Shown: in pieces, positions 6,201-51,474 of the stretch | How the letters are laid out: every line of letters begins with the position of its first letter | How positions within the stretch are numbered: position 1 is the stretch's first letter | Assembly: GCA_026770025.1 (NCBI GenBank) | Contig: JAMXDE010000082.1 | Coordinates: 1 to 64,000 of the forward strand | Reading direction: 5' to 3' | Length of the DNA: 64,000 nt | Source of the DNA: Craspedostauros australis | Taxonomy: Eukaryota > Bacillariophyta > Bacillariophyceae > Mastogloiales > Achnanthaceae | Program-made: the position numbers and the translations under genes | Notes under the pieces: model-generated | The model's database searches: none | The model's input: only the letters and a program-made list of their open reading frames with translations | Told to the model about the DNA's origin: nothing

Positions 6201-6351
6201 TGTCGAGATGTACATGTGAGTATATGTCGAGATGTACGTGTATATGTGCATCGTTCACCCGCTATTCTCTCATACGCACTTGGACGGTATAACTACATTC
6301 GTGTCGATAGTATACTGTGATTCGTCAGAATTACAGGGGAAACGGAACACA
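6201..6351 (+). repeat. 3' LTR of Copia copy A, first part (split LTR)
   Basis: This starts TGTCGAGATG, as do the LTRs at 41688 and 56981, and matches their first 151 bases. The match stops after AACACA at 6346-6351. The missing part of the LTR begins at 21192 with the same AACACA. The two pieces add up to about 802 bases once the duplication is counted once, against 798-800 for the complete LTRs. Confidence 0.9.
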
Positions 6352-6357
6352 ACAAAC

Positions 6358-6373
6358 TCGATAATTCGCAAAA
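6358..6373 (+). repeat. Left near-terminal inverted repeat of the 14.8 kb insertion
   Basis: TCGATAATTCGCAAAA. Its reverse complement is found at 21175-21190 with one mismatch. A second TTCGCAAAA sits at 6379-6387 and a reversed copy at 6606-6617. Confidence 0.6.
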
Positions 6374-6971
6374 TCAACTTCGCAAAACGGAATGGTGTCT
6401 CCCATCCGTGGTACTTCCTCTTTTCGATCGCCGATTCGTAGTATCCCGTGGATCCGCCTTAGCTAGTCCCAAATTAGTGACGTGTCAGAGAGGGAAATTG
6501 TTTAATCATGAGCACGTACTGTGAGAGCCTCTGGTTTTAGCAGTTTGGGCGGCATTGGGAAAGTCGACTGGCGTGACTTTCATATTAGCGAATTGAGAAA
6601 TTTTTTTTTGCGAATCAGACTCATGACCAAACAAGGAACACAGTGCAAGTTACACGGTACGATCCAGTCCCACAAATAAACCTCTATACTCATTTGATTA
6701 GCTCTTACGTAGTATCGCGTTAAAATGACAAGGTAAAAACAATTGCAACGGAGTATCTCCAATTGTTATGTTGTTTTTTTGCGCATAGCGACTACCATGT
6801 GCGCTTGTTTAAAGTCTGGACTTTGTATGAACGATATGTTTATCATTTGTGAACATAGGCTCTATACGCGTGGAAAATACTATGATAGAGTGAGATGAGA
6901 GGGCACCCAGATGGCATGAGAGAGTGATCAGGCGCTCGCCGTAAAGAAATCCATCTGGTATACAGTGGGGG
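6374..6971. other. Left flank inside the insertion, no gene seen
   Basis: AT-rich sequence between the left inverted repeat and the satellite. It carries two short poly-T runs (about 6601-6609 and 6773-6780), the first followed by GCGAATCA, which matches the right end of the insertion (TTTTGCGAATCA, 6606-6617 and 21175-21186). No coding potential recognised. Confidence 0.5.
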
Positions 6972-9900
6972 TGGTCGTAATTGCATATTTAGGGGTCTCT
7001 CCGGTCATATTTGGTGATTCATATGACAGTGAATATTCAGCACCACTGAATATCGTGTTCTGGCCAGATGTACATAGGAATGGTCAATGCGCGAGCAAAC
7101 CAACGATGGTGGGCCATGGTACGGCCTCCAATGGGTGCGTTCCAAGTGGTTATAGGTCGTAATTACGTATTTATAGGATCCTCCGGTCGAATTTGGTGAT
7201 TCATATGACAGTGAATATTCAGCGCCACTGAATATCGTGTTCTGGACAGATGTGCATACAAATGATCAATGCGCGAGCAAACCAACAATGGTGGGCCATG
7301 GTATGGTCCCCAATGGGTGCGTTCCAAGTGGTTATAGGCCGTCATTGCATATTTAGGGGTCACTCCGTCGAATTTGGTGATTCATATGACAGTGAATATT
7401 CAGCGCCACTGAATATCGTGTTCTGGACAGATGTACATACAAATGATCAATGCGCGAGCAAACCAACGATGGTGGGCCATGGTATGGTCCCCAATGGGTG
7501 CGTTCCAAGTGGTTATAGACCGTCATTGCATATTTAGGGGTCACTCCGTCCAATTTGGTGATTCATATGAAGTTGAATATTCAGCACCACTGAATATCGT
7601 GTTCTGGCCAGATGTACATACAAATGATCAATGCGCGAGCAAACCAACGATGGTGGGCCATGGTATGGTCCCCGATGGGTGCGTTCCAAGTGGTTATAGA
7701 CCGTCATTGCATATTTAGGGGTCACTCCGTCCAATTTGGTGATTCATATGAAGTTGAATATTCAGCACCACTGAATATCGTGTTCTGGCTAGATGTACAT
7801 AGGAATGGTCAATGCGCGAGCAAACCAACGATGGTGGGCCATGGTATGGTCCCCCATGGGTGCGTTCCAAGTGGTTATAGGTTGCCATTACGTATTTAGG
7901 GGTCACTCCGTCCAATTTGGTGATACATATGAAGTTGAATATTCAGCACCACTGAATATCGTGTTCTGGCCAGATGTACATACAAATGATCAATGCGCGA
8001 GCAAACCAACGATGGTGGGCCATGGTATGGTCCCCGATGGGTGCGTTCCAAGTGGTTATAGACCGTCATTGCATATTTAGGGGTCACTCCGTCCAATTTG
8101 GTGATTCATATGAAGTTGAATATTCAGCACCACTGAATATCGTGTTCTGGCCAGATGTACATACAAATGATCAATGCGCGAGCAAACCAACGATAGTGGG
8201 CCATGGTATGGTCCCCGATGGGTGCGTTCCAAGTGGTTATTGAGCGCTATTACGTATTTAAGGGTCACTCCGGTCATATTTGGTGATTCATATGAAGTTG
8301 AATATTCAGCACCACTGAATATCGTGTTCTGGCTAGATGTACATAGGAATGGTCAATGCGCGAGCAAACCAACGATGGTGGGCCATGGTATGGTCCCCCA
8401 TGGGTGCGTTCCAAGTGGTTATAGGTTGCCATTACGTATTTAGGGGTCACTCCGTCCAATTTGGTGATACATATGAAGTTGAATATTCAGCACCACTGAA
8501 TATCGTGTTCTGGCCAGATGTACATACAAATGATCAATGCGCGAGCAAACCAACGATGGTGGGCCATGGTATGGTCCCCGATGGGTGCGTTCCAAGTGGT
8601 TATAGACCGTCATTGCATATTTAGGGGTCACTCCGTCCAATTTGGTGATTCATATGAAGTTGAATATTCAGCACCACTGAATATCGTGTTCTGGCCAGAT
8701 GTACATACAAATGATCAATGCGCGAGCAAACCAACGATAGTGGGCCATGGTATGGTCCCCGATGGGTGCGTTCCAAGTGGTTATTGAGCGCTATTACGTA
8801 TTTAAGGGTCACTCCGGTCATATTTGGTGATTCATATGAAGTTGAATATTCAGCACCACTGAATATCGTGTTCTGGCTAGATGTACATAGGAATGGTCAA
8901 TGCGCGAGCAAACCAACGATGGTGGGCCATGTTATGGTCCCCGATGGGTGCGTTCCGAGTGGTTATAGAGCATCATTACATATTTAGGGGTCACTCCGTC
9001 CAATTTGGTGATTCATATGACAGTGAATATTCAGAGGCAATGTATATCGTGTTCTGGCCAGATGTACATACAAATGATCAATGCGCGAGCAAACCAACGA
9101 TGGTGGGCCATGGTATGGTCCCCGATGGGTGCGTTCCGAGTGGTTATAGAGCATCATTGCATATTTAAGGGATCCTCCGGTCATATTTGTTGATTCATAT
9201 GACAGTGAATATTCAGCGCCACTGAATATCGTGTTCTGGCCAGATGTACATAGGAATGGTCAATGCGCGAGCAAACCAACGATGGTGGGCCATGGTATGG
9301 TCCCCCATGGGTGCGTTCCAAGTGGTTATAGGTTGCCATTACGTATTTAGGGGTCACTCCGTCCAATTTGGTGATACATATGAAGTTGAATATTCAGCAC
9401 CACTGAATATCGTGTTCTGGCCAGATGTACATACAAATGATCAATGCGCGAGCAAACCAACGATGGTGGGCCATGGTATGGTCCCCGATGGGTGCGTTCC
9501 AAGTGGTTATAGACCGTCATTGCATATTTAGGGGTCACTCCGTCCAATTTGGTGATTCATATGAAGTTGAATATTCAGCACCACTGAATATCGTGTTCTG
9601 GCCAGATGTACATACAAATGATCAATGCGCGAGCAAACCAACGATAGTGGGCCATGGTATGGTCCCCGATGGGTGCGTTCCAAGTGGTTATTGAGCGCTA
9701 TTACGTATTTAAGGGTCACTCCGGTCATATTTGGTGATTCATATGAAGTTGAATATTCAGCACCACTGAATATCGTGTTCTGGCTAGATGTACATAGGAA
9801 TGGTCAATGCGCGAGCAAACCAACGATGGTGGGCCATGTTATGGTCCCCGATGGGTGCGTTCCGAGTGGTTATAGAGCATCATTACATATTTAGGGGTCA

Positions 9901-11375
9901 CTCCGTCCAATTTGGTGATTCATATGACAGTGAATATTCAGAGGCAATGTATATCGTGTTCTGGCCAGATGTACATACAAATGATCAATGCGCGAGCAAA
10001 CCAACGATGGTGGGCCATGGTATGGTTCCCGATGGGTGCGTTCCGAGTGGTTATAGGTCGTAATTACGTAATACAGGATCCTCCGGTCAAATTTGGTGAT
10101 ACATATGACAGTGAATATTCAGCGCCACTGAATATCGTGTTCTGGACAGAAGTGCATAGGAATGATCAATGCGCGAGCAAACCAACGATGGTGGGCCATG
10201 TTATGGTCCCCGATGGGTGCGTTCCGAGTGGTTATAGACCGCCATTACGTATTTAGGGGTTCTGCGGTCAAATTGCGTCACACACATGAAGTAGAATATT
10301 CAGCGCCACTGAATATCGTGTTCTGGATAGATGTACATAGGAATGGTCAATGCGCGAGCAAACCAACGATGGTGGGCCATGGTATGGTCCCCAATGGGTG
10401 CGTTCCGAGTTGTTATAGGCCGTCATTGCATATTTAAGGGGTTCTGCGGTCAATTTTGGTGATTCATATGACAGTGAATATTCAGCAACACTGAATATCG
10501 TGTTCTGGCCAGAAGTGCATAGGAATGGTCAATGCGCAAGCAAACCAACGATGGTGGGCCGTGGTATGGCCCCTGTTGGGTGCGTTCCAAGTGGTTATAG
10601 GCCGTCATTGCATATTTAAGGGTCTCTCCGTCAAATTTGGTGATACATATGAAGTAGAATATTCAGCGCCACTGAATATCGTGTTCTGGACAGAAGTGCA
10701 TAGGAATGATCAATGCGCGAGCAAACCAACGATGGTAGGCCATGGTATGGTCCCCAATGGGTGCGTTCCAAGTTGTTATAGGCTGTCATTGCATATTTAA
10801 GGGATCCTCCGGTCAAATTGCGTCACACACATGAAGTAGAATATTCAGCACCACTGAATATCGTGTTCTGGACAGAAGTGCATAGGAATGGTCAATGCGC
10901 GGGCAAACCAACGATGGTGGGCCATGGTATGGTCCCCCATGGGTGCGTTCCGAGTGGTTATAGGCTGTCATTGCATATTTAAGGGATCCTCCGGTCAAAT
11001 TGCGTCACACACATGAAGTAGAATATTCAGCGCCACTGAATATCGTGTTCTGGCCAGATGTACATAGGAATGATCAATGCGCGAGCAAACCAACGATGGT
11101 GGGCCATGGTATGGTCCCCCATGGGTGCGTTCCGACTGGTTATAGGTCGCCAATGCATATTTAAGCGTGCCTCCGGTCAAATTTGGTGATTCATATGACA
11201 GTGAATATTCAGCGCCACTGAATATCGTGTTCTGGCCAGATGTACATAGGAATGATCAATGCGCGAGCAAACCAACAATAGTGGGCCATAGTATGGTCCC
11301 CGATGGGCACGCTCCGAGTGGTTATAGGTCGCCAATGTATATTTAGGGGTCACTCCGGTCCAATTTGGTCATGCA
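6972..11375 (+). repeat. Satellite array, about 24 units of about 181 bp
   Basis: A head-to-tail tandem array. The landmark CGAGCAAACC (with small variants) recurs about every 181 bases from near 7090 to 11261, giving 24 units. Each unit carries GAATATTCAG-CGCCA-CTGAATATC, a dyad with a 9-10 bp arm, and a second imperfect dyad around GGGCCATGGTATGGTCCC. A higher-order period of five units (907 bp) is visible: 8337-9243 is repeated at 9244-10150, and its first three units resemble 7793-8336. Units toward the right end are more diverged. The open frames of about 95 codons in every unit follow from the repeat and are not genes. Confidence 0.95.
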
Positions 11376-12548
11376 TGGGAATGACCAGTCCGAAGGCATG
11401 CAACCGATTGGGACCCATCCAAGGCCTTTCCATCGGCATATTCCGTGGGTTTGTACGCTTTCTTTACTTTCGTAAGGGGTTGACACCTTCATGTTCCTCG
11501 TACACACGATGACACCGATCGTCGAACGCCACTGTGGGTCAAACCGGCCTATATCTGCACTGCACTGATCAATTTGGAGGAATGAAATCATCTTGAGCTT
11601 ATCCTTGGACCTCTCCCGGACACTTTCCATGTGGTTATTTGCTGCATTTGCATCTTCGAATACCGGCTCCTTCAAACTTTGCCTTCACGTGACACCATCC
11701 AGGAACTGCCAACATGAACCATATCTGAACAAATCCCCATTGGAATCATCAATCTCAGGACGTCCATCAAACTGTGTTGTATCCAGGGGGCGCTCATAGG
11801 TGTATCAACGCCCTTGATCTGCTCCTGAAGCCTCCGCAAAGACCTGAATGGTTGGATACCCATACCCATATCAGCATGGCAGCTTCTAAGCGATTTATCG
11901 TACTGAACCAAGCTTGAGAATCGCGATCTCACATTCCTAAGAGTGTTCACACATGATTTTGGATGTGGAGGTTTGAGAATGGTGGAGGTGAATGCATGCG
12001 AATGAGCATGTGCATAGCCTGCAACCTCAATGCCTCTCGGACGGATGGATGCACCAATGTAGGCTGATCTGAGCCAGTCTACAGCAACAAAACGCAAGCA
12101 ATACTTTGATGCGTATCGGCACTATCATCGAGCATATGCGAGTACGAGCCGTCCCGATCGACCACGTCCATGCATGGCACAGTGCCCGATCGTATTTTGT
12201 GAACGCATGCGGCAAAGTTGTGGGAGTCGATGGAGTTGTCAGTAATCCGTGACTGGGGACTCGATGAAAGATACCAATCAACAAATGGCGCCATCACCAA
12301 CCTCGCCCCGAAAATTGCAACTCCCTCCATCATCCTACGTCGTCTGTCATGTTCCTTGAAGCTTCAGATCCTTGTGCATGAGCAAATAAATAATGCAAAG
12401 ATCAAACTCTCTTATGGGGCTGCGCTGGAGGCGCTTCCCTCCGCCTCCTTTCAACTTCGCGCCGGACACTAAGGGAGCACAGAATCTGTTGATTGTTGTA
12501 TGCATTCAGTGAATGTGCGAGCTGTCGTGTATGCGGCTGCTTTACATT
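11376..12548. other. No recognisable gene
   Basis: Between the satellite and a LINE scrap. Minus-strand open frames (11343-11675 and 11672-12097) match nothing I recognise and are not supported by a second copy in the window. Confidence 0.4.
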
Positions 12549-12845
12549 TTAGGCCGGGGTTGGATGAGCGCGTCTTCTGCGCTTCAGCCACATGAACAGG
12601 GTGCCAGAGGCAGTCGGTTCATGCAACATCTGTGTGGTTTGCTCGACCCATATCGCGACCTGCGCTATGTGCGCGTCTGCTGTTGGTGCCGTCCGTTGAA
12701 TCCTGTGGTGAGTGGGCCGATGGTGCTCGCGGCGGAGACGAAATGATTCTGATCTATTGCGAAGAGCTTGATTTATTCCGGCTTCAGCCAAGTCTTGACC
12801 TTCAAAAAGTGCTTCGTTTCGAGCTGCCCATTGCTCCCACGCCAT
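12549..12845 (-). pseudogene. LINE C-terminal remnant
   Basis: A 98-residue minus-strand frame containing WEQWAARNEALF, the W-x2-W-x2-R-N signature that follows the zinc finger at the C-terminus of the LINE copies at 31.8, 54.6 and 15.3 kb. A Gln/Arg-rich tail follows. No RT or RNase H is attached, so this is a short scrap. The family assignment rests on one motif. Confidence 0.5.
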
Positions 12846-14832
12846 GCGCTAGATGCAACATATGAGCTATCCAGACCATTTCGCCACGGACTTTCTGGAT
12901 TGTTGCCGCCTCAGAAAAACCCCTCTACATCGGTTCCCAGATCCTCGTGCATGACACAACATCATGCAGCATCGTTGTCCTTCTTTGATCATCAGACCAG
13001 CAACGTCAGAGCCACCAGTCATCCTGTTCCGTTCACCGCTCTACTACAATCAAGAGCTGACATCTCGTCCCATCGCACGGTGCATGCAGGGCATCGCTCA
13101 CTCTCGCGCTGCAATCAGAAGACGACAGTCAAGTTATCATAAATCAGCCTTTCACCCTTTTACAAGAAAGTTGGCACATGTGCTGCATAGTTCCATGGCA
13201 CAAGTGGAGCACCGAGCACGGAACGAAAACAGCAATGACAACACCAATATTCGAATGGAGAAATGGAACAAAATGAAAACAGCACCGCACGACCTATTGT
13301 TGGTGATAGGAGCCCAAGCATTTGTACAACTTTCATTTGTGGCAGCCATGCACACACCTGGCAGGACGGTTCCATGGGTGAGAGACGAGTGCACCCAAGG
13401 ATGGAGAGTAAAACGATCGCCAGCGACTGGCGCGCACCTCCAAAGTGGCAAAAAGTGAGCGACGTCACTTCACAGGTTGGAGTTCAGACAGGCCAAAAAA
13501 TGTGCCGTGGGCCAACTGAACCATTGACTCGTCATTTTTTGTTTCCTGTGGAGCAAAACGCTAGTTCATAATCCCTGCAAAATATCATGCAAAACACGAA
13601 ATGGCTGAGACTGCAATCACCATGAACTACGGCAGCAAGCTGAGTATAGCAGGAAAATGGACAGCAGCTCTCTTGCGGTAGCCTACTTATTACGTTTGTT
13701 GCGGGGATGATGCGGATGGTGCTCTCCGTGTCCTTGAATATGTGCCGGTTGTGAAAAATGGAATCTGCAGCGAGATCGCAATGTGTCACGACCGATCATA
13801 CTTCAATTGCATGGGCTCGCAATGATCATGAGATTGGTGGCCGTCGCCGCGAAAGCATAACTTCATTCTTTTGTGCTGTTGGCGTTGTTCCTTGGTCCGT
13901 CTGGTTGTTTCTTGTGAACCGCATTCCAAAAGTAACGAATACGTGGTCGAGTATTCGTAGCGTGGCTATTGCGTTGATACATGCCGCGAATGGTTGGAGT
14001 TGGTCCTCAAGGTCACAACGTAGTCCTCTGAATTGCATGTCCGTAGGCACATACGTACCAATGACCTGGAACGTAACCGCGTGATGCAGCGGATCAAAAG
14101 TGTATGTAGCTGGTACCCCCAAAATGATCCGACTACTATGTGATAGATCGCAGTCTTAGAATACAGCTACTTGGGTTTTATGACTAGTTGACTGAGGTGC
14201 GGAAGCTGATGGTCTGATGATTGCCATACACCGCGGGCAAGTGCGAGGAGTGTGTGTGTGTGCTCAGTGAAACGGATGCGAAACCAAACGGATGTGTTGA
14301 TATGTTGAAAATTGAGTCTGATAGGATAGCGTCCAGTGATCGAATTACTTGGGAGACTGAACGTCTTTGGTTGAGCATTGTCGATCGATGATTGTCGCAT
14401 AGGGGCATGGCCCCACGAAGGATCATGCGTTGGAGGATGCGCACATTCTCGGCGCACTGAGGATGCGGCCCGATGCTTTTGGCGCGAACTGACCGATCGG
14501 TATTTCTTTTTGTCCAGGTCTGAGTCCAGCTTGGGAACAGTCGTGGACTTGAGTCCGCTCACATTTTGAGATGTGTGCACAACTGCAATGATACCGACAC
14601 ACAGGCGTCATGTGGATTCAGGCGCCGCCTCGGTGATCTAGAGAGTTGCAGTGGGATGGCGACGGCATCTACATCAGAAATGATTCGCCATGACCACGCA
14701 GATCATCTGATCGACCATCTGAATAATAATAATAACTCACTGACTATCCCTTGCATTCAAGGTTGCCTCGAAGGCTTCATAGTCGCCCGCAAACGACGAG
14801 CCAAAAGGCCGACCACGCCAGAACGACTTCTA
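12846..14832. other. No recognisable gene
   Basis: Unclassified sequence. The minus-strand frames at 13826-14122 and 14167-14580 have no motif I can place. A short ATA-type microsatellite lies near 14724. It may be further decayed transposon. Confidence 0.4.
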
Positions 14833-15348
14833 TTAGGATCTCGCTTCCCTGCCTTCCACAGATTGCCATCTCCATAAATCACATAGAACATACCGCACTG
14901 GGCACCCGATTCCACATCCGCCGTGCACTTCACCCATATCATGTATTCCCGCGTCTCCGCCTCGCTTGTTCACGCTCTGCCCTCCTTGACCGGAGCCTGC
15001 TCGCGCACTTCCTCTTCTGCCCCTCCTGATGCCATAATCCTCCCTTTGGCGCCCTCTTCGTTGCCTGTCACCCATGGTGGGCGTTGCTGCTCCTGTCCTT
15101 GGCCCCGTCTGCCATAACCGGCTTGCCGCTGTTCCTACTCTGGCCGCCTCCACATGCCGTACCCGCGCAAGTTGCTCATCCACTGGCATTCTCTGGACCT
15201 GCTCCTTGCTCGTGTTCTCCAGCAGCCCCGCGTCCCTCCATAATAATCCTCTACTCCCTCACTGCTACACCACTTCCACCTTCTCTTGCGCCTGCTGGAC
15301 CTTCTCTGTCTATTTGCTCCAAAGCTCATCCTCGTGCAGTGCCTGATT

Positions 15349-16080
15349 TCATGCTTTCCACGCCACCCATCGTACTTCCCACAGGCCTCGAATCGCTTGG
15401 CTAATCCAATGCGTTGGCGTATCTCTACTGCCACTTCGCCGCATCGTTTCAGTCCGTACTCGCCGCCACTGCCAAGACCACCTCCCCATCACCATCTTGT
15501 CCCATCCAATCTTGCCTTGCGCCATCGATGCTCTGTGCACATCAGACCACCCTTGCGGTTCCGCCTCGCGCTGTTCTGTCCACATTCGCACCTGCCGCAC
15601 GATCTCTTGTACCATTTGCGGATCCCCCTCGTCCATTCTCATCGCGCGCGCCCACTTCTCCAAAGCGGCATGCCTCACTTGCATCGCAGCAGGATGCTGA
15701 CACTGCATCACATGCGCCTTCATCTCTTCCTCTGTTTTGCATACCAGGCATAGGCCATCGCTCCAGAATCTCCACTTCCGCATATTCCTGCCGACCGGTC
15801 CGAAATGCGCCGCGTGCTTCACCACCCATCGTCGCCTTCCATTCTCCAGCCCATGCATCGTCGCTCGTATAGAATGACCGTCGACATCAGCCATCTCCTC
15901 CCAGTCCATTTTGCCTGTCCTACTCTGCCACTGCTCGGTTTTCTGCCACTGCACGTGTTCCCACAGAGTATCCTTCGTGCTCGCGCAAGCCTTCTCTCCC
16001 CCTATCCACACTGACCACTCATCTCCATGCAGTTCCTCATCACGCTCCGGACCGTTCCGTCCCTGCTCCGCTCCCGCCAT
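15349..16080 (-). pseudogene. LINE C-terminal domain remnant with zinc finger
   Basis: A 243-residue minus-strand frame ending a non-LTR retrotransposon protein. It has a zinc-binding motif CLVCKTEEEMKAHVMQC (C-x2-C-x7-H-x3-C), then a Trp-rich stretch (IGWDKMVMGRW, IRGLWEVRWVAWKA). The frame is stopped by TGA exactly where the related copies have Arg in W-x2-W-x2-R-N, and the continuation NQALHEDELWSK is readable beyond it. That is most simply CGA changed to TGA. A further in-frame stop follows. RT and RNase H are absent. Confidence 0.7.
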
Positions 16081-16559
16081 TTTGTCGACATCGTCGTTCC
16101 AGTGCGATGATCGACCATCTGAATACCTGCGATACTACGCTGCGATCATCTCTCTTTCACATGCCACCGATCACACGCATACTGGCGACCGCCACCACAT
16201 TCTTTCAAATTCGCCACACCAATCAATCATCCTGCTCCCACTACGGATTCCTGATGATGTGCGCCCTCTGGAAATGGCCAATAGCCCGACCGCAAACGAT
16301 CAAAGGTAACAATCATGTTCGATGATGGCACTACCCATACATGGGTCGCCCTGCTCGTTCGCGTCCTCATTCCACTCTGGTCAAGTCTCATCTGTCTGCC
16401 TACACTGTAGCTGACCCGCTCAATTATGTACAATGGGGTACGACACAATCCATTGCGCTTGGATCAGCACTGATATGTCGGTCGTATCGGCGCTCCGCTC
16501 GATTGGTGTCTCCTTTTCGTCCTGCTCTACTCCCCACACTGCAGTCGTCCATTTTCTGG
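16081..16559. other. No recognisable gene
   Basis: Between the LINE scrap and the tandem duplication. The phrase GATCGACCATCTGAATA occurs at 14709 and again at 16106, so a short direct repeat brackets the LINE scrap. Nothing else seen. Confidence 0.35.
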
Positions 16560-17424
16560 AGTCGACCCATGGACGAACGATGACGGAAAAAAGAGACGAC
16601 GGCGACACACAAAACTCGGATCGGATCCACAACAAAACTCCTCCAATCGCCGTGCGCATCCTCACTCTACTCAGTTCTGGGACATCATGGCCGATTCCCG
16701 TCGCATGTAACACAATCCAAAGCAGAGAAATCACACGACCATGAGAGTAATACCATTCCTAACAGGCATCATACTATGATTGTCTGAATTATATGTTATA
16801 ACATAAAAGTGCGCTCTCCTCGTATTCGTTATGCCATCGTATTGCGCATCACATCACGATGATGTGGTGATGAGGATGAGTTGGACATCATTGAAATCAC
16901 CTCGATCGTGTGGTAGTGTAGTAGCGTAGTAGCGTGGGAGCGTAGTCGCGTGGGAGCGTAGTACCTTAGTATAGTAGCATAGTGTTTTCAGTACAATAGC
17001 GATGATGTTGTGGTGAGCAGTCGCGAAAACGCTCTGTGATGGCTGTGCGCGTCATGCTTTTGTCGGCCATTTTCCGGAGTCGACTCATGGACGAACGATG
17101 ACGGAAAAAAGAGACGACGGCGACACACAAAACTCGGATCGGATCCACAACAAAACTCCTCCAATCGCCGTGCGCATCCTCACTCTCCTCAGTTCTGGGA
17201 CATCATGGCCGATTCCTGTCGCATGTAACACAATCCAAAGCAGAGAAAGCACACGACCATGAGAGTAATACCATTCCTAACAGGCATCACACTATGATTG
17301 TCTGAATTATATGTTATAACATAAAAGTGCGCTCTCCTCGTATTCGTTATGCCATCGTATTGCGCATCACATCGTGATGATGTGGTGACGAGGATGAGTT
17401 GGACATCATTGAAATCACCTCGAT

Positions 17425-17515
17425 CGTGTAGTAGTGTAGTAGTGTAGTAGTGTAGTAGTGTAGTAGTGTAGTAGTGTAGTAGCGTAGTAGTGTAGTAGCA
17501 TCGTGGTGGAGTACC
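17425..17515 (+). repeat. TAGTAGTG-type microsatellite
   Basis: Runs of GTAGTAGTGTAGTAG with an octamer-like period, interrupted near its end by GTAGCG. A shorter, more degenerate version lies at about 16913-16960 in the first duplicate. Confidence 0.85.
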
Positions 17516-17527
17516 GTAGTATAATAA

Positions 17528-17564
17528 TATACTATAGTATTATATAGTATAATACTATAGTATA
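17528..17564. repeat. Perfect AT-rich hairpin, 17-bp arms
   Basis: TATACTATAGTATTATA, then TAG, then its exact reverse complement. Only one G or C pair type interrupts A/T, so the sequence could extrude as a cruciform. The first duplicate lacks it. Confidence 0.85.
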
Positions 17565-17655
17565 GTAGCATAGTGTTATCAGTACAATAGCGATGGTGTT
17601 GTGGTGAGCAGTCGCGAAAACGCTCTGTGATGGCTATGCGCGTCATGCTTTTTTG

Positions 17656-17999
17656 TTTGTGCGAAGTACTCCGAATCGAATCGTCATCGAAGTTTTGTGA
17701 TCACCGTGTGTATCCTCATCCTCGTCGATTCTGGGATCGACCATGGCCGATCTGTGCGAACGGCTGAGATGACGGAAGCAAAAAGGCATGACCAATTCGC
17801 AACAAAAGTTTCTCCGATCGCCGCGAACATCCTCGCTCTCCTTGATTCTGATCACACCCCGATCGTTTCTGTTTTGGACCGAAAGTCGACGCACGATTCG
17901 AATCACTGCGTACCAGCACCAACACACACTGTGAAGCACACCAAAACGCCACGAGAGATGCACCAGAAGTCGCTGGATCACAATTGCTATTCTTCACGT
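17656..17999. other. Region 3' of the recombinase gene
   Basis: No gene seen. It contains the 3' flank of the minus-strand recombinase and partly echoes phrases of the neighbouring tandem duplication (CATGGCCGAT, ATCCTC). Confidence 0.35.
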
Positions 18000-20681
18000 C
18001 TACTTGTTGGCTTTGGCGGCGGCTTTGGCGGCGGCTTCGGAGGCCTTCTTTTTGGCTCTGTTCCTTTTGCCGATTGCGATGTTGAGTTGGCCAGTGGCCA
18101 TCTTGCCAAACTCTCTGTGTATGTTCGCTAATGCTGCTGGCCCTTCAACGCCGAGCTCAGCGAGACGCTCGAACTCCTCCCAAATGAACTTGCGACGGTT
18201 CCAAATGAACTTGTTGTTGCTGTTCTTCAAGTCCGTTTCTTTGTTCATCTCTTTTGCTGCCATCAACCCATACAATCCCTCATGATACTCTCTCCAGAGC
18301 AGCTCCAACGTACCTAGTTGCGGGGTGAGGACTGCTCTCCCAGGATCGGGTTTGTTCGTCCGCTGTGACATCGCAGCTGCTCTTGCTCTCGCTTGCTTCG
18401 CGATTCGCTTCCGCTCTGCCGCCACAGCTGCGGCTTGCTCCAATCTCTGCTCTTCCAGCCTTGCTTCGGCCTCTGCCTGTGCTGCAGGAGACAGTTCTGG
18501 CTCGACCTCCATAGGTGCAAATGTTACAGTTGGTGTAGGTGCATCGATCAGCGTTGGCAGAGATGGCTCAGTTTCTTCGGTTGGTGCTGTCTCGGTCGGT
18601 GTTGGTGGCACAGACACATCAATTGGTACTGTCTCGGTTGGTGGTGTGGATGGCACAGGCACATCAATTGGCACAGATGCTGCTGGTGCCAGATCGATGG
18701 TGGGCGGTTGATGATGGCTGCTGTTCTTCGTGAGAAGATCGAGGAGGACGTCGAGCTTGTTCTCCATCCTGTCTAGCTTCGTCTCCATCAGGTCCAGCTT
18801 CATCTCCATCTTGTTGCTCTTGAGCTGGTTGCATGCAACAGTGGTCCTCACCGTCTCTATACCCGACTTGATGCCATCGAGCGCCAGCTGCTGGGTCTCC
18901 AACATGGTTACAGTGACCCTTCCCACCCCTTCGGCATGTTGGTAGGCCTCAAATGGATTACCACCTGTGCCAGCAGCTCGATTGATGATAGGACGTGGGC
19001 CCTCAGCGATCTTGAGCATGCCGCGTACGTTGCCGACGTAGAGGCAGACTCGCTCCACTGGGTTAGCATCTGGGTCCAAGTTAGATTTCTGTGCCAGCTC
19101 GCGGTAGGCCTTACGCACACTGTCAGAGAGCCATGCAGGCATCATCTTGGAGGCATGTGCGTCCATTGCACCCCACAGCAGGCCACGAGCAAATGCAAGG
19201 GCAAGGGGACGGGCAAGACGATGTCGGATCTTCCTTGCGACATTGTCGAGGAGCCAATCATCTGTGACGACTTCAGGCTTGACAATCTTGTAGGTGCATG
19301 GTGCTTCGGGCGTGGATCTGCATGCTACCTCTGCATCAGGATACGAGAGAGTGGCAGGAACGTACTTGTTCAGAATAGTTCGCTGGGGCAGCATCCAGCG
19401 GGCGCGCTCTACGACGGTAGTGAAGCAGCAACCAACGTTCATTGCGTGGGTGGCGGAACACTTGCGGATGGAGTGGGTTCCGAGGCGCTTGATGGGCCCT
19501 TCGCTAGAGATGACCTTGAACTCTGGATCGTTCACGCAGTGGGAGATCGCATCCTTCGTTACTGATAGAGTCAGCTTGGGCACCTTGTCGCCAGTACCAC
19601 GCATGGAGAACAGGTAGGGCTCCTCTCGTTCTGTCTTGTGCATAGATGCCTCCATATGGATGGCAAGAGCAAGGATCGGACAGTACTTGATATCGAATGA
19701 TCCGACAATAATCTGCAATGCAATCCTGCTGATCTCTGCAGCATTCTTGGACTTCATGACTTTGATGCCGATATGGCCAGGAGCATTTGGGATGGTGGAG
19801 AAGTAGCTGAACCGAAGGTTCGCAATATCGTCACAGCGACCAATAAGATGGAATTGCAACTTGAAAAATGCGGTGAGACTGTACGCAGCGACATCATCGC
19901 TGGAGTCAGCGAGCATAGACAGGACCTGTTCAAACTCTTCGAGCTCAAATGGTTCCCTCTCGCTCCCCTCCTTGCAATCTCCTTTCTTTTCCAGCTTCTT
20001 GACTGCATTGATCACATCCCAGACAGGCTGACTGCGGCATGGATTACCAACCTCGTGTCGATTGGACCATCTATTTTCCCCATCAATCATGATGCTGGAG
20101 ATAGCAGAATAGTAGCCCCTCAGTGTTCCAAGCCTCGCATAGGAGGATGAGGCACCAGGAGCAGGATTCTCTGTTCCAAATGCCTTCTTGCGCAAGAAGT
20201 TGGCAACATGCACAGGACGGACAGCATCGTACTGCTCACGAGTGAAGGGAAGCACTCCCTTCTTGATCTCCTTGATGTCGTCTCTGGTGAATTGCAGATC
20301 GAAGACATATGCCATGAATGCAATCACCTTCGCGTTTTTGCTTTGCTGTGCTGTAGATACAGTATGCACAGTGCAAGCAGCTGCAGTAGTCTCAACCGCG
20401 GCGCCAGTATTGGCAGTGTTGGGTTCGGCGGCGAGCGTAGCAGCGGGCGCAGTGGTGGGTGCATCAACGACCATTGCTCCAGGTCCAGTAGCAGGAACTG
20501 CAGTGGGTGGAGCAGGAAGCACCGTGGTGGGCACAGCGGCGGGTGCAGCGACGGGTGCAGCGACGGGTGCAGCAACGGGAGCTGCGATGGGTACAGCGTT
20601 GAGCGTAGCAGTGGGCGGATCAGCAGCAGCCACGACGGAACGCGCAGTTGGATTGGCGGTGGGATTGGCGGTGGTGGTCAT
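18000..20681 (-). CDS. Crypton-like tyrosine recombinase
   Basis: An intact 893-residue protein, probably a DNA-cutting tyrosine recombinase encoded by a mobile element. Residues 1-105 are Ala/Pro/Thr-rich with AAPV repeats. The catalytic domain spans about 115-445. R282 lies in LIGRCDDIANLRF, a candidate lysine in the KVMKSKNA hairpin, H403 and R406 in THSIRKCSATH, W429, and the nucleophile Y440 in LNKYV. This is the R-K-H-R-W-Y set of the superfamily. A coiled coil (LDLMETKLDRMENKLDVLLDLL, about 627-655) and a Pro-rich linker follow. Residues about 788-850 (ELLWREYHEGLYG, then WNRRKFIWEEF) resemble the GCR1_C DNA-binding domain carried by some Cryptons. A Lys/Ala-rich tail ends at TAG. The ATG at 20681 is the first in frame. 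It lies about 0.5 kb from the right border of the 14.8 kb insertion and reads inward. The recombinase call is firm; the GCR1_C assignment is by motif only. Confidence 0.85.
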   Translation of the reverse strand: MTTTANPTANPTARSVVAAADPPTATLNAVPIAAPVAAPVAAPVAAPAAVPTTVLPAPPTAVPATGPGAMVVDAPTTAPAATLAAEPNTANTGAAVETTAAACTVHTVSTAQQSKNAKVIAFMAYVFDLQFTRDDIKEIKKGVLPFTREQYDAVRPVHVANFLRKKAFGTENPAPGASSSYARLGTLRGYYSAISSIMIDGENRWSNRHEVGNPCRSQPVWDVINAVKKLEKKGDCKEGSEREPFELEEFEQVLSMLADSSDDVAAYSLTAFFKLQFHLIGRCDDIANLRFSYFSTIPNAPGHIGIKVMKSKNAAEISRIALQIIVGSFDIKYCPILALAIHMEASMHKTEREEPYLFSMRGTGDKVPKLTLSVTKDAISHCVNDPEFKVISSEGPIKRLGTHSIRKCSATHAMNVGCCFTTVVERARWMLPQRTILNKYVPATLSYPDAEVACRSTPEAPCTYKIVKPEVVTDDWLLDNVARKIRHRLARPLALAFARGLLWGAMDAHASKMMPAWLSDSVRKAYRELAQKSNLDPDANPVERVCLYVGNVRGMLKIAEGPRPIINRAAGTGGNPFEAYQHAEGVGRVTVTMLETQQLALDGIKSGIETVRTTVACNQLKSNKMEMKLDLMETKLDRMENKLDVLLDLLTKNSSHHQPPTIDLAPAASVPIDVPVPSTPPTETVPIDVSVPPTPTETAPTEETEPSLPTLIDAPTPTVTFAPMEVEPELSPAAQAEAEARLEEQRLEQAAAVAAERKRIAKQARARAAAMSQRTNKPDPGRAVLTPQLGTLELLWREYHEGLYGLMAAKEMNKETDLKNSNNKFIWNRRKFIWEEFERLAELGVEGPAALANIHREFGKMATGQLNIAIGKRNRAKKKASEAAAKAAAKANK

Positions 20682-21174
20682 GCTGGCGATATCAAGCTGG
20701 TTGGCAGTATGCAGGGTGGTATGATGGAGGTGGGAGGATGACTTTCATTGCAAAACAAGGGCACCATGGTGGAGAACATCAAGCATCTGTTGCGCTGCTG
20801 TTCCGCTGCTGCTCCGCTGCTGTTTTTGTTCCGATCGGTCTGTGAGCCAAATTATGTGTCGCGCAAGACGAAGAAAATGCCGATTCAAATCTGGCAAAAA
20901 AGGGTCCGTCAACGTTTTCCCCCAAAAGAGAGGGCATCCATTCCCATTCATGCATGCAGCCAACAAGGCCGATGACAACAATAAAGTGTACCACAGCAGT
21001 GATTGTCAAATGTTCCGATACCTCCATGACGTCATGGGCATGGGCGTCCGTTGTGCCTCCTGCGATTGGGGGACAGCACTGTCGCAGGACGGGGTGCCCT
21101 AAAAGAGCAGGCGATTCCCTGGCCCCTCATTGGCCCATTTCGATTTTGCGAACCGTGTTTTGGGGGACTACTAC
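20682..21174. other. Upstream region of the recombinase
   Basis: About 0.5 kb between the recombinase start and the right border, expected to hold its promoter. A plus-strand frame at 20842-21102 has three Cys/His pairs but no family I recognise. TTTTGCGAA occurs at 21144-21152, a subterminal copy of the border motif. Confidence 0.4.
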
Positions 21175-21190
21175 TTTTGCGAATCATCGA
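21175..21190 (-). repeat. Right near-terminal inverted repeat of the 14.8 kb insertion
   Basis: TTTTGCGAATCATCGA, the reverse complement of 6358-6373 with one mismatch. It ends one base before the insertion border. Confidence 0.6.
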
Positions 21191-21191
21191 A

Positions 21192-21848
21192 AACACACGA
21201 AAAGGGGCAAGATTTCTGGAGGAAATTTGCAAATGACGATTTCTGAGAGAATTGGAAGATCGTCCGTCCATCCATCAATGGTACCAAGAGAATCTCGAGG
21301 TACTTCCCAACTAAACCTCAGATGACGATATCATCTGACAGACTACTGCATCACCAATGGAACGTGACATCTGGAGAGCAGAAGGACGCCTACTGATGTC
21401 GACAGGATGTCATCATGTCACCACGTCGACATCTGTCTCCAAGTCAGAGCAGGAGGCGAAGATCCGATGACCGAAGGGCATCAGGATCATGGATACAGAA
21501 GGTGAACTTCAAATGGTAAGTACTCATGGAGTAGGAGCCAGTACTGAATGAACGGAGTGTTGAATGCGGAGTACGCATCGAACACGGAGTATCGTGTAGC
21601 ACGAGCACACGATGTTGAGAGAGAGAGAGAGAGAGAATACAGAGAAGAGCGAGAGAGCATCTCGCGTACCGACTCATAATCGGAGACTGAATCTACGAAA
21701 CAGATTGAAGCGCCGAGAGCATCGGGCAAGAGAATGGGCGTACACCGAGAGCATCGGAGTAGCCAAGTAATGAAATAGCAAACAGATGACTATCAACCAA
21801 CACCATCTTCCACGATCGTAGGTTACCGTGAGCGGAACTTGCCAACAC
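21192..21848 (+). repeat. 3' LTR of Copia copy A, second part
   Basis: This matches the complete LTRs from their AACACACGAAAAGG onward and ends TTGCCAACA at 21848, the common LTR end. It includes TACTTCCCAACTAAACCT (21301-21318) and a GA microsatellite (about 21616-21635). It lacks exactly the first part found at 6201-6351, in the same orientation and order, so the two are halves of one LTR. Confidence 0.88.
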
Positions 21849-22427
21849 CCCCACCACCATCGTTCTCGAAGAGGGAGTCGGCGAAGCGGCGAGAGAGGTC
21901 CTGGAGGCCGGACATGACGAGGACAACCAAAAAGGAAGAGAGGAGATCAGCAGTGAAGTTTCATGCAGTACTGTGCGCCGTGATCATGCGACGACAGTGA
22001 CTGATGAATTCCTGTGATCTTATGTGCTTGTGTTGTGACTTTCTGATGTTGGCCTTGCATGGTTGTTGTTGTTGTTGATAGTTCTAGTTGGCCTGTCCCT
22101 ATTAGGCCTAGTGTCAGGAAAGGGCAGTGTGCCATCTGTTCGTTGATTGGCCTGTTTGAGTACCATACGTGGGTCGTGCATCCAGCCTGTTGAGTCGATC
22201 GGGTCAAACACTCTGATGCAAAAGCCTGCTTGATTGATGATTCGTGATGAGTGCGATCATGGAACAGAGAAACAGAACGTGCGAACAAGACAACGACAAC
22301 CTTGCTATTCCTTGCAGCAGTCTGGTCTCATACCATCAGTCAGCATCTTCATCATAAGACCGTGAACACATTGAGCAATCATCCAGCAATTGTTTGTCTA
22401 CCAACAGCTCAACAACCAACGACCAAC
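21849..22427. other. Flank of Copia copy A and upstream region of the ankyrin gene
   Basis: No gene seen. A GTT microsatellite lies near 22062-22078. The 5' leader of the ankyrin-BTB gene is expected here: the gene's frame is open back to at least 22251, but the first convincing ATG is at 22428. Confidence 0.4.
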
Positions 22428-24197
22428 ATGCCGAATGTCTCAGACGAACAACTCCTTGACGCTGCCAAGACAGGTGATCTGTCGGTGTTGAAGGAATGGA
22501 AGGAGCAGAACGAAGGACGTGATGTCAACACGGTCAAAGACGGCTATGGTTGGACTCCCCTTCATTGGGCATGCGCCAACGGCCGCCTGGAATGTGTGAA
22601 GTACCTCATCGAATCAGCCAACGCCGATGTCAACTGCAAGAACAACGATGGCTACACTCCACTTCATGGGGCATGCGTCAGAGGCAGCCTGGAGTGTGTG
22701 AAGTACCTCATCGAAACATGCAACGCCGATGTCAACTGCAAAGCCAACAATGGCTACACTCCACTTCATGGGGCATGCGTCAGAGGCAGCCTGGAGTGTG
22801 CCAAGTACCTCATCGAAACATGCAACGCCGATGTCAACTGCAAAGCCAACGATGGCGACACTCCACTTCATCGAGCATGCGCTAACGGCAGCCTGGAATG
22901 TGTCAAGTACCTCATCGAATCAACCAACGCCGATGTCAACTGCAAGAACAACTATGGCAACACTCCCCTTCATGAGGCATGCGCCAACGGCCGTTCTGAA
23001 TGTGTCAAGTACCTCATCAGATCAACCAACGCCGATGTCAACTGCAAGAACATCGATGGCAACACTCCACTTCACTATGCATGCGCCGGTGGCAATTCTA
23101 AATGCGTCAAATACCTCATCGAATCAACCAAGGTCAATATCGACATCCAAAACAACAAAATCAAAACACCCATCGATGTATTCATTGCGAACAAGCAGGT
23201 CAAGATGATGAGATCAATCATGAAGCGTCTCGGTCATCTCAGTCAACGCAACTTGCAACTGCAGACGCAGCTGCAAACAGAGACGCAGGTGCACAAGCAA
23301 AGCCACACAAACACCATCACAACACCAACCAAGCACGACAATCCTAAAATCCACACAACAACCAACATCAGCATCGACCAAGATCGTCGCAGCGCTGTTC
23401 GTTCTGAGGCCAAGGCAGACATCACCTTCCTGTGCGGACAAGGCGACGAACAACAGCCAATCAAAGCAAACTCCGGAGTCCTCATGGTCACTGTTCCGTC
23501 CATTCAGACATTGATCAACTCGGGAATCCAACATCAGCATGTCGATGACGGCACTAATGACGGCACTGATTCTGCCACTGCCCTCACCCGCAGGCTCATC
23601 CCTCTTCCCAACCATCAACCCAAACATGTCCAACGTGTCCTCGAATGCATCTACACAGGTGAGATATCCTTCGATCACAGCACTCCGGACAACGATACTG
23701 ATACCCGTGATGGCGCTCATGACGACGATGATGGCGCTGACCAGCCAACTTCCACCGCCGATGGACAGGACGATCTACAACAGCTGATCCTTGTGGCCAA
23801 CGAGTTCGGCTTCTGGCGACTCAAGCTTGTTCTTGAAGCAGAGTTGGCCCGCACTCATCTCACAGAGGACACCATGGTAGATATGGTGATCTTCGCCAAT
23901 CAACACGGCTGTTTACTGTTGAAGGATGCAGCAACGAGAATGGCAGCTGCGAATAAACAGAACTTCTTCACTCATCCAGATTTCAGCAAGCTGATTCTAC
24001 ATCCCCAACTGATGGGAGAGATCCATGCCATCTGCAATGGGGGAGCGGCAAGCAATGAAGTTGATGACAAGTACAGTGCCATGTCCATGATGGATTTGTA
24101 CAAGGTCGTGGATGAAAGTGAGGGTACAGCACAAGTGGATTCATACATGGATCGTGCAACGTTGATGAACCTTGTGCGGTCCGTCGCACCTGGCTGA
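22428..24197 (+). CDS. Ankyrin-repeat and BTB domain protein
   Basis: A 589-residue protein, probably an adaptor for protein-protein contacts. After a short N-terminus (MPNVSDEQLLDAAKTGDLSVL), six near-identical 34-residue ankyrin repeats run from about residue 42 to 240, with the pattern TPLHxACxxGxxECVKYLI...NADVNCKN, plus a degenerate seventh (TPIDVFIANKQV). A Gln/Thr-rich linker follows. A BTB fold starts near residue 325 (ADITFLCG, later IPLPNHQPKHVQRVLECIYTGEI) and is interrupted by an Asp-rich insert. A helical BACK-like tail follows (LILVANEFGFWRLKLVLE). The start is chosen because the second, deleted copy at 50.5 kb begins with the matching MPDVSNKQL. The near-identity of the repeats suggests recent expansion. 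Ankyrin plus BTB proteins often serve as Cullin-3 substrate adaptors; that role is inference here. No intron is needed. Confidence 0.85.
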   Translation: MPNVSDEQLLDAAKTGDLSVLKEWKEQNEGRDVNTVKDGYGWTPLHWACANGRLECVKYLIESANADVNCKNNDGYTPLHGACVRGSLECVKYLIETCNADVNCKANNGYTPLHGACVRGSLECAKYLIETCNADVNCKANDGDTPLHRACANGSLECVKYLIESTNADVNCKNNYGNTPLHEACANGRSECVKYLIRSTNADVNCKNIDGNTPLHYACAGGNSKCVKYLIESTKVNIDIQNNKIKTPIDVFIANKQVKMMRSIMKRLGHLSQRNLQLQTQLQTETQVHKQSHTNTITTPTKHDNPKIHTTTNISIDQDRRSAVRSEAKADITFLCGQGDEQQPIKANSGVLMVTVPSIQTLINSGIQHQHVDDGTNDGTDSATALTRRLIPLPNHQPKHVQRVLECIYTGEISFDHSTPDNDTDTRDGAHDDDDGADQPTSTADGQDDLQQLILVANEFGFWRLKLVLEAELARTHLTEDTMVDMVIFANQHGCLLLKDAATRMAAANKQNFFTHPDFSKLILHPQLMGEIHAICNGGAASNEVDDKYSAMSMMDLYKVVDESEGTAQVDSYMDRATLMNLVRSVAPG

Positions 24198-24697: not shown

Positions 24698-25477
24698 TCA
24701 TGCATGGATCGTCGTACTCCACTGCAACTGGACGGCGCAAGATGAATGCATCGCGACTGTTGGCTTGTTGGTGTTGCTTCCGCCGTTGTTGGATGGCATC
24801 ACGCAAGGCGCAAGCGCACGCCAGCTGCCACATGGGCTCCAGATGCAGCCGGCAAGGATGGCGAGCCATGGGACAAGTTGCTGATGCTGTAGCAGATGAT
24901 TTCTCCGACTTGTGGATCCGATGACACGGTGCCTCCATCTCATCGTTTGCAGCTGTGGCTGCGATGCATCGCTTTGAGCTTCAGCATGAGCCGGCGTTGG
25001 TGGTAATGGTGCGTGCAGTGGTGGCTGTAATAGAAGGAGCATCTCCGAACACCTGGTGCTACAGGTCCCAAAGAAGTTGCTGCGTCCGATCTCATCATGA
25101 ATGCACTCGTCCAGCAGGCATTGAATCGCAGCTGCCGATGGCACATCCAGCGTGGGCGCTGCTGCTGATCACTTGAATCCGGGGTTTATCACGGAAGCAT
25201 GGCGTCTCTCACCACTGTTGATGGCACCGTTGTTGATGGCACCGTTGTTGGTGCCGCGATTGTTCATGCGACTGTCCATGCAATTGCCTTGATATCTTCC
25301 TTTCTGATGTCGCCGATCGATGCGATACGGTTGCAATCGCTCTTCGTCACTTCCCATTCGTCATCATCATCAGCATCATCAGCATCATCTCCATCTCTTG
25401 CCATGGTCGCCGTCATCCATCCTTTTCGGTATGCGGCGTTGTGCGTGGCTGGTTGTTTCACCCATGCATTGCTTTAC
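24698..25477 (-). repeat. Inverted duplicate of the 51.5-52.0 kb block (decayed hypothetical gene)
   Basis: Read on the minus strand, this matches the plus strand at about 51475-52030. Shared peptides include KGWM.ATMARDGD..D.DDDDEWEV, CxRIASIGDIRKEDIKAI and PSAA.IQCLLDECIH. The conserved pieces lie in different frames (25461-25264 and 25144-24698) with stops between them, so this is either a multi-exon gene or a pseudogene. No domain recognised. It lies tail-to-tail with the ankyrin-BTB gene, whereas at 51 kb the matching block is head-to-head with the deleted ankyrin copy. Confidence 0.6.
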
Positions 25478-34385: not shown

Positions 34386-34456
34386 AAGCCCCCTAACCCT
34401 AACCTAACCCCAGTACTAACCCCAACCTAACCCTAGTACTAACCCTAACCCTAACA
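34386..34456 (+). repeat. Interstitial telomere-like tract (CCCTAA)n
   Basis: About 70 bases of CCCTAA with degenerate CCTAACC and CCAGTACTAA units. TTAGGG/CCCTAA is the common eukaryotic telomere motif and is used by diatoms. It sits about 0.26 kb inside the left arm of the inverted-repeat unit, far from a chromosome end in this window. Confidence 0.85.
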
Positions 34457-41687: not shown

Positions 41688-42487
41688 TGTCGAGATGTAC
41701 ATGTGAGTATATGTCAAGATGTACGTGTATATGTGCATCGTTCACCCGCTATTCTCTCATACGCACTTGGACGGTATAACTACATTCGTGTCGATAGTAT
41801 ACTGTGATTCGTCAGAATTACAGGGGAAACGGAACACACGAAAAGGGGCAAGATTTCTGGAGGAAATTTGCAAATGACGATTTCTGAGAGAATTGGAAGA
41901 TCGTCCGTCCATCCATCAATGGTACCAAGAGAATCTCGAGGTACTTCCCAACTAAACCTCAGATGACGATATCATCTGACAGACCACTGCATCACCAATG
42001 GAACGTGACATCTGGAGAGCAGAAGGACACCTACTGACGTCGACAGGATGTCAACATGTCACCACGTCGACATCTGTCTCCGAGTCAGAGCAGGAGGTGA
42101 AGATCCGATGACCGAAGGGCATCAGCATCATGGATACAGAAGGTGAACTTCAAATGGCGAGTACTCATGGAGTAGGAGCCAGTACTGAATGAACGGAGTG
42201 TCGAATACGGAGTACGTATCGAACACGGAGTATCGTGTGCGACGAGCACACGATGTTGAGAGAGAGAGAGAGAGAGAATACAGAGAAGAGCAAGAGAGCA
42301 TCTCGCGTACCGACTCATAGTCGGAGACTGAATCTACGAAACAGATTGAAGCGCCGAGAGCATCGGGCAAGAGAACGGCGTACACCGAGAGCATCGGAGT
42401 AGCCAACTAATGAAATAGCAAACGAGCGACTATCAACCAACACCATCTTCCACGATCGTAGGTTACCGTGTGCGGAACTTGCCAACA
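41688..42487 (+). repeat. Solo LTR of Copia family 1
   Basis: 800 bases, TGTCGAGATG to TTGCCAACA, closely similar to the LTR at 56981. No internal copia sequence adjoins it, so it arose by LTR-LTR recombination of a full element. It is flanked by TGCGAA on both sides and lies inside the transposase-like frame. Removing the LTR with one duplicate rejoins that frame exactly. Confidence 0.93.
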
Positions 42488-51458: not shown

Positions 51459-51474
51459 GCATACATGACCAGTA

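Follow-up and report, generated by a model that had tools for sequence, protein, structure and literature searches.

A probable giant Crypton-type transposon inside a split copia long terminal repeat of the diatom Craspedostauros australis

Introduction

The window analysed here, a stretch of 64 kb from the start of contig JAMXDE010000082.1 of the diatom Craspedostauros australis, contains a copia retrotransposon whose 3' long terminal repeat (LTR) is interrupted between positions 6351 and 21192, with 14.85 kb lying between inverted ends of the motif TCGATRATTCGCAAAA. The sole intact long gene of the insertion encodes a tyrosine recombinase, and the locus raises the question of what entered the LTR: a small recombinase element beside unrelated DNA, or the whole segment as one unit. 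The initial annotation, made from the window alone, favoured a single mobile unit with the recombinase at its edge and inverted repeats as its bounds, and six out of six close copies in the genome proved to be alike in this. Very probably, the insertion is one copy of a giant Crypton-type tyrosine-recombinase transposon that has been active recently.

Insertion Site

The copia LTR stops at 6351 and resumes in the same orientation at 21192, and match coordinates of both parts agree with the uninterrupted copy at 41688-42487; together the parts measure 801 bp, against 800 bp in that copy. AACACA is present once in whole LTRs and twice at the split one, at 6346-6351 and 21192-21197. The interrupted LTR, its parts adding up to one normal repeat, and the duplicated AACACA had all been reported in the initial annotation. 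Both whole LTR copies in the window have GGAACACACGAAAAGG across the insertion site. A 213-base probe spanning this site gave 1114 genome candidates, 40 of which were scored; all 40 matches listed, one of them the query itself, run across the site unbroken with 99-100% identity.

Copies in the Genome

The genome searched comprises 74.8 Mb in 90 contigs; copies are given C numbers, C80 being the copy in the window. With 51 of 71 candidates scored, 16 recombinase matches were found, six with 94-100% amino acid (aa) identity (family 1), eight with 56-57% (family 2), and two with 30-34%. The motif TCGATRATTCGCAAAA has 11 exact and 4 one-mismatch matches genome-wide, against 0 for the reversed control, and 12 of these 15 are both ends of six elements holding the six close recombinases, so that five further family-1 elements end in the motif and enclose the gene. 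One of the remaining three matches belongs to C64, a copy of the window locus. The other two, one-mismatch matches at C1:2055929 and C31:312938, were set aside, as their insides are unrelated and no recombinase match lies near. In the window alone, with up to three mismatches allowed, two motif matches were reached in 31 of 100 shuffles, which is not rare.

The six family-1 elements are 14.8 kb (C80), 16.2 kb (C7), 18.0 kb (C11), 25.8 kb (C5), 30.4 kb (C1), and 36.7 kb (C34) long and their six loci have unrelated flanks, homology between the loci not being found beyond the end bases. All six share the ends, a satellite, a body, and the recombinase within the same two borders, with the recombinase about 0.5 kb from one end and reading inward. 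As satellite and body lie inside each of the six copies, both are parts of the mobile unit. Borders near 18.0 and 20.7 kb, which would leave the satellite outside, are contradicted by the copies, as all six enclose it. Size differences among the siblings come from longer satellites and nested insertions. The satellite of C1 contains about 6.5 kb of extra DNA, in which a 1797-aa frame shares 73% identity with the copia polyprotein encoded at 43543-48933. Several insertions are present in C34, where extra DNA has an 854-aa frame without a match; a PT-repeat match of the extra open reading frame (ORF) stayed under its cut-off.

Segmental duplication was rejected as the source of the copies because their flanks are unrelated, C64 and the pair C50/C51 being exceptions. 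A 3016 bp stretch of C64 that takes in the LTR flank matches the window at 100% (96% at the C64 contig start); C64 was taken as a duplicate of the window locus and left out of the copy count. C50 and C51 share a flank and may be one locus assembled twice. Recombinase coding sequences are identical in C7 and C11, in C31, C7b, and C15, and in C50 and C51; identical coding sequences at loci with different flanks point to recent movement. Separately, an 86% copy of the family-1 far segment at C7:2601002-2601582, with no recombinase match nearby, is a possible relic.

Ends, Target Sites, and Proposed Mechanism

The inverted motif that the initial annotation had placed near both borders is exact at each of them (Table 1). 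Just inward of the terminal inverted repeat (TIR) stands a second copy of TTCGCAAAA, a candidate second recombinase site, which is present on the recombinase side in all six family-1 elements. At the far end of C1 this inner copy is set apart by a 1.8 kb insertion flanked by duplicated TTCGCAAAA. All five TTCGCAAAA sites in the window are within the element. Beyond the repeat at the far end, exact agreement extends over 10-16 bp in the 10 pairs without C34 and over 0 bp in the five pairs with C34, whose end bases differ. At the recombinase end, it extends over 5-7 bp in 15 of 15 pairs.

Family-1 targets at the core ACA are CATCA (C1, C7, and C11), GAACA (C5 and C80), and AAACA (C34), while an empty relative of the C34 target has GAACA. 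This relative, an 83% identical repeat at C56:284440-284540 and the only one of 38 other listed repeat copies to span the site, reads CCTGA-ACA-GAATG, against CCTAA-ACA-CAG at the far side and AAA-ACA-GAATG at the right side of C34. A crossover in A-ACA is consistent with the data of both C80 (AACACA) and C34 (ACA core); at C80, the 6-bp repeat would then consist of the core plus two bases matching by chance. C34 (610448-610507, 573710-573793) also occupies the loop between the arms of a 15-bp inverted repeat, AATATCATTCTGTTT, beside a dispersed repeat family.

A circular intermediate has been proposed for Cryptons (PMC3212892). In the present element, the recombinase would cut the unit out in circular form, bringing the two ends together as inverted arms on either side of a 13-bp centre, AAACACAACAAAC; the predicted junction would be TTTTGCGAATCATCGA-AAACACAACAAAC-TCGATAATTCGCAAAA. 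The centre would then be joined to a short target match, with a consensus of about SAWCA and exchange within ACA, and the joining would leave a direct repeat of 3-6 bp.

Recombinase

The tyrosine recombinase gene, as described initially, faces inward, and it is the sole intact long gene; it begins 0.49 kb inside the right border. Residues R282, K312, H403, R406, W429, and Y440 are invariant in an alignment of nine recombinase sequences, and Cre is the top match (E 0.0034) of the profile built from these nine, its HxxR, W, and Y aligning with those of the recombinases. The catalytic residues appear to be in place, their roles being assigned by comparison with Cre. The recombinase part matches a PHROG integrase family (7.5e-8), and a family-2 copy matches Phage_integrase at 0.0045, under the cut-off. 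No Pfam recombinase model was matched by the window recombinase, and no solved structure matched it; alignment-free structure prediction gave a mean predicted local distance difference test score (pLDDT) of 36.

The GCR1_C domain exceeds its cut-off in all 14 family-1 and family-2 copies and in none of 14 control genomes, and the reading frames of all 14 recombinases are open. Between the families, the synonymous distance (dS) is 0.99-1.08 and the ratio of nonsynonymous to synonymous change (dN/dS) is 0.34 (3 pairs computed).

The two distant recombinases (30-34%) are at C61:226540-227961 and C12:1260039-1261319; the latter contains a stop, and no match of a 1.5 kb body probe is listed at either place. 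GCR1_C was also seen in a 292-aa frame at C10:181715-181915, away from any recombinase match.

Satellite and Body

The satellite array and the duplications that had been noted inside the insertion are both there, with a 181-bp unit and as a 591/518 bp pair. The array is 4.4 kb long in the window copy and about 3 to 15 kb in the siblings. A satellite 22-mer has 288 matches in the genome, and all 100 of the matches listed are within elements. The 520-590 bp tandem repeat occurs in three copies in C5 and four in C1.

The body is 5.2 kb long. A 1.5 kb body probe has full-length matches at 14 places, with 97-100% identity, and partial ones in C64 and C3. Thirteen of the 14 places are recombinase-bearing elements; the last, C36, has a family-2 far end and no recombinase match. 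Other matches are fragments 154-316 bases long with 74-86% identity, plus a 79-base piece of C3, so that long matches are confined to elements or contig-end pieces of elements. The satellite and body had been regarded as acquired cargo; they are parts common to the copies, and no host cargo gene was recognised in the standard element or its body. Five body ORFs have no Pfam match. The LINE (long interspersed nuclear element) scraps suspected in the window copy were not borne out either, as the ORF in question (12549-12845) has no Pfam match. The longest body ORF (15349-16080, 243 aa) has stops in four of seven copies compared. RNA genes were not found: Rfam gave nothing for the element at E up to 0.1, and no tRNA was detected anywhere in the window.

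Contig C31 begins within the satellite of an element and contig C64 within the body, and these elements therefore probably break assemblies.

Second Recombinase Family

The second recombinase lineage, 57% identical to family 1 at the aa level, is present in eight copies and has end sequences of its own. Its end AATTCTCTCCCTTTCGAAGTAACC is about 2.0-2.1 kb upstream of the gene in eight of eight copies, in one with a mismatch; the distance is exact for three copies. The far end is ATTCTCTTCTTTTCGAAGTTTC in all four far ends read. As the two ends read inward (TTCTCTTCTTTTCGAAGT and TTCTCTCCCTTTCGAAGT) agree at 16 of 18 bases, family 2 appears to have an imperfect inverted repeat. Far-end patches place the family-2 elements of C42, C50, C3, C68, C15, and C7 at about 20-29 kb, and unpaired family-2 far ends are found at C67 and C36. 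These far ends match the family-1 far segment only as patches, of about 71-78%. Like C80, C31 lies in an LTR of this copia family; its site is AATT, about 20 bases away from that of C80 (right side seen), and about 8.4 kb of a LINE with RVT_1 and endonuclease domains lies inside its family-2 satellite (C31:139-8535).

The body of C31 is 98.1% identical to that of the window copy, a value equal to that of the most divergent family-1 sibling, whereas the alignable part of the recombinase DNA is 70.3% identical; the body therefore seems to have passed between the lineages long after the recombinases parted. Identity shifts within about 5 bases of the recombinase stop, with the edge at element position 11657 and the stop at 11653-11655, and the recombinase-side ends do not align: that of C31 has no counterpart in family 1, and the end segment of the window has no match in family-2 copies. 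In other family-2 copies, the body probe matches at 97-98% in six, whereas in C3 part of it matches, at 93%. Over 30 codons the C80 recombinase is 98% identical to family-2 C42, with C34 at 68%; this tract is read as a trace of between-family exchange reaching into the recombinase gene. The body would have been transferred between the two lineages through recombination or gene conversion among co-resident copies.

A search for the family-2 end with up to three mismatches gave 12 matches, against 1 for the control, and four of them are away from family-2 recombinases, at C11 and C24. Those at C11:1615688-1615740 are two family-2-like end repeats in tandem, next to a 74% far-end patch, possibly the far end of a third, degraded relative. 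At C24:671936 and 681337, two same-facing repeats (2 mismatches) are 9.4 kb apart and share a flank.

Alternative Explanations

Three other identities of the insertion were weighed against a giant Crypton-type transposon. A small Crypton of recombinase and flank could move alone, with satellite and body as adjacent host or composite DNA; Cryptons are described as lacking TIRs (PMC3212892), and the interruption of the longest body ORF in some copies is in keeping with bystander DNA. Six unrelated loci, however, share ends, satellite, body, and recombinase between the same borders, and long matches of the body probe fall nowhere but in elements or contig-end pieces of them, so that this explanation was rejected on the common borders and is scarcely credible. 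A true Starship, with a recombinase of the fungal captain family moved horizontally into the diatom, would account for the recombinase at one end reading inward, the TIRs and short direct repeats, the size of 14.8-36.7 kb, and insertion into another transposon; with GCR1_C in place of a Pfam DUF3435 match and no accessory gene recognised in the standard body, it is highly improbable. TIRs are usual in DDE transposons, and the recombinase could be a passenger in a giant DDE-type element whose transposase acts from elsewhere. Giant DDE elements are known in a brown alga (PMC12477816). Yet the end sequence next to the recombinase is specific to each lineage (6 of 6 and 8 of 8 copies), the direct repeat fits the short matched core ACA and not a staggered copy of fixed length, and no transposase was recognised in the standard element, which leaves this explanation improbable as well. 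A viral origin was also rejected: none of 51 pattern stretches in viral contigs encodes a relative, although no dedicated capsid-gene search was made.

The giant Crypton-type transposon remains the preferred identity, and the relation between its two families can be read in two ways. It is somewhat probable that a giant transposon of Starship layout arose in the diatom from Crypton stock and that its body is driven by two recombinase lineages with their own ends, through driver replacement. The shared body could quite possibly come instead from gene conversion between old co-resident elements and not from a swap of recombinase modules, which would refine the transposon reading and leave it standing; a conversion-like tract inside the recombinase gene and many near-identical copies within one genome speak for this. 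The body, however, is uniform over about 5 kb, while recombinase, flank, and far segment have diverged; a conversion tract would need to be long, with a boundary on either side, and a module swap takes fewer events. The comparison of swap with conversion is one based on a single family-2 body.

Several points weigh against the giant Crypton-type transposon. An empty allele of the same locus was not found (C5 examined), and direct repeats were compared with an empty target for two of the six copies, C80 and C34. Within families, dN/dS is 0.16-0.90 in 9 informative pairs among the 13 computed of 43 possible, with few changes, so that only the between-family comparison shows clear constraint on the recombinase. 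The body may be coding, as several of its short ORFs, of up to 164 aa, have no stop in any of the seven copies compared. In family 2, far ends were read in four of eight copies, one body (C31) was read through and the others were seen via the 1.5 kb probe, and the far end of C31 lies off its contig.

Other Features of the Window and the Host Genome

Coordinates of the element and the split LTR are given in Table 1. Adjoining the element, at 22251-24197, is an ankyrin-repeat and BTB gene with 102-bp DNA repeats. The window also has a pair of inverted repeats, 86% identical and 26 kb apart (24891-25477 and 51472-52034), and a short interstitial repeat of CCCTAA type at 34391-34455. Elsewhere in the genome, the silicon-transporter family is strongly expanded, e.g., at C2:977655-1028778 and in C9, C11, C24, and C61. 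PF03842 has 88 matches, of which 25 are over 800 bits and without a stop and the others are broken; in 14 control genomes, none exceeded the cut-off and one match was under it. Taken by themselves, these matches make a diatom host very probable, although another silicifying group would also fit. In C10, copia LTR matches at 626466 and 641280 accompany two broken silicon-transporter copies.

Table 1. Parts of the insertion and of the split copia LTR, in window coordinates
Feature	Position	Strand	Basis or comparison
Left part of split copia LTR	6201..6351	+	99.3% to 41688-41838; ends with AACACA at 6346-6351
Far-end outermost bases, CACAACAAAC	6348..6357	+	identical in 5 of 6 elements; 3 differences in C34
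Far-end TIR, TCGATAATTCGCAAAA	6358..6373	+	exact motif match
Far-end segment, 0.6 kb	6374..6975	+	95.1-99.8% in five siblings
Second TTCGCAAAA just inside far end, candidate second recombinase site	6379..6387	+	same place in 5 of 6 elements
181-bp satellite array, length variable between copies	6976..11376	+	tandem repeat
Body without recognised genes, common to both recombinase families	11377..16543		98.1-99.8% to five siblings
Tandem pair of 520-590 bp repeats (591/518 bp)	16544..17652	+	84% to each other
Tyrosine recombinase, 893 aa, sole intact long gene of standard element	18000..20681	-	ORF, profile matches
GCR1_C DNA-binding domain, recombinase C terminus	18144..18326	-	Pfam PF12550 over cut-off
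Recombinase-side end segment, inner TTCGCAAAA at 21144-21152 (-)	20682..21174	-	96.0-99.8% in five siblings
Recombinase-side TIR, TCGATGATTCGCAAAA	21175..21190	-	exact motif match
Right part of split copia LTR	21192..21847	+	96.2% to 41833-42487; starts with AACACA at 21192-21197

Comparison with Known Systems

A literature search, judged by title and the start of the abstract and with many journals outside its coverage, found no such element described. CryptonF elements share the combination of a tyrosine recombinase with a C-terminal GCR1_C domain and have short terminal direct repeats, mostly of 6 bp (PMC3212892). The R-H-R-Y residues of such recombinases are found here as R282, H403, R406, and Y440, and short direct repeats were seen at C80 and C34, in both cases by comparison with an empty target. 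In protein layout and in its short direct repeats, the element appears closest to CryptonF. It differs in its 16-bp TIRs at both ends, Cryptons being described without them, and in its size of 15-37 kb with a built-in satellite and body. CryptonF is known from fungi and oomycetes according to PMC3212892, where the type named for a diatom is CryptonS, without GCR1_C. CryptonS, of oomycetes and a diatom, has a stramenopile host and a tyrosine recombinase in common with the present element; it lacks GCR1_C and has mostly TATGG termini (PMC3212892), whereas GCR1_C and other termini are found here.

Large stramenopile elements of other kinds are less similar. Giant DDE transposons of Ectocarpus (KDZ, EnSpm, and Sola-1) are 10 to >30 kb long and carry nested insertions (PMC12477816), but they use another enzyme class. 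Integration of Ectocarpus endogenous phaeoviruses, also large DNA of a stramenopile, is attributed to a tyrosine recombinase (PMC13236599); they are viral genomes, and no relative of the present recombinase was found in viral contigs. Tetris, compared by its description, is likewise linked to tandem repeats, but as a foldback transposon and not a recombinase element (PMC4079207). In the diatom, satellite DNA travels as an integral part of the transposon.

Starships of Pezizomycotina have a recombinase at one end reading inward, sometimes TIRs, direct repeats, and a large size (PMC12134995). The leading inward recombinase is present in six of six family-1 copies (at 0.5 kb) and eight of eight family-2 copies (at about 2 kb). 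The element differs from Starships in its host, which is outside Pezizomycotina, in a conserved satellite-bearing body in place of variable cargo of accessory genes, and in the 14.8 kb of the window copy, just under the lower length of 15 kb quoted in PMC12134995. The DUF3435 domain of captains (PF11917) was matched neither by the full window recombinase (E up to 0.1) nor, at E up to 10, by the recombinase part, a family-2 copy, or C61, although HMMER filters could hide weak similarity. The resemblance to Starships in the initial annotation thus stands for layout; it does not extend to descent, given the CryptonF layout of the protein and no captain-domain match as far as tested.

Near-identical cargo is reported with different captain families in Starships, and driver swapping is a question left open for them (PMC12134995). 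Here, too, a body is shared by different recombinase families, and two recombinase/end modules seem to serve a single body, a situation suspected for the fungal elements as well. Two driver-and-end modules around a 98% identical body offer a system for testing driver swaps within one genome. Giant recombinase transposons with a leading driver gene are described from one fungal subphylum (PMC12134995), and a Starship-like plan in a diatom from other recombinase stock suggests that the plan can evolve more than once. Judged by its sequence, the element is Starship-like in layout and, by its predicted protein, a TIR-bearing giant Crypton.

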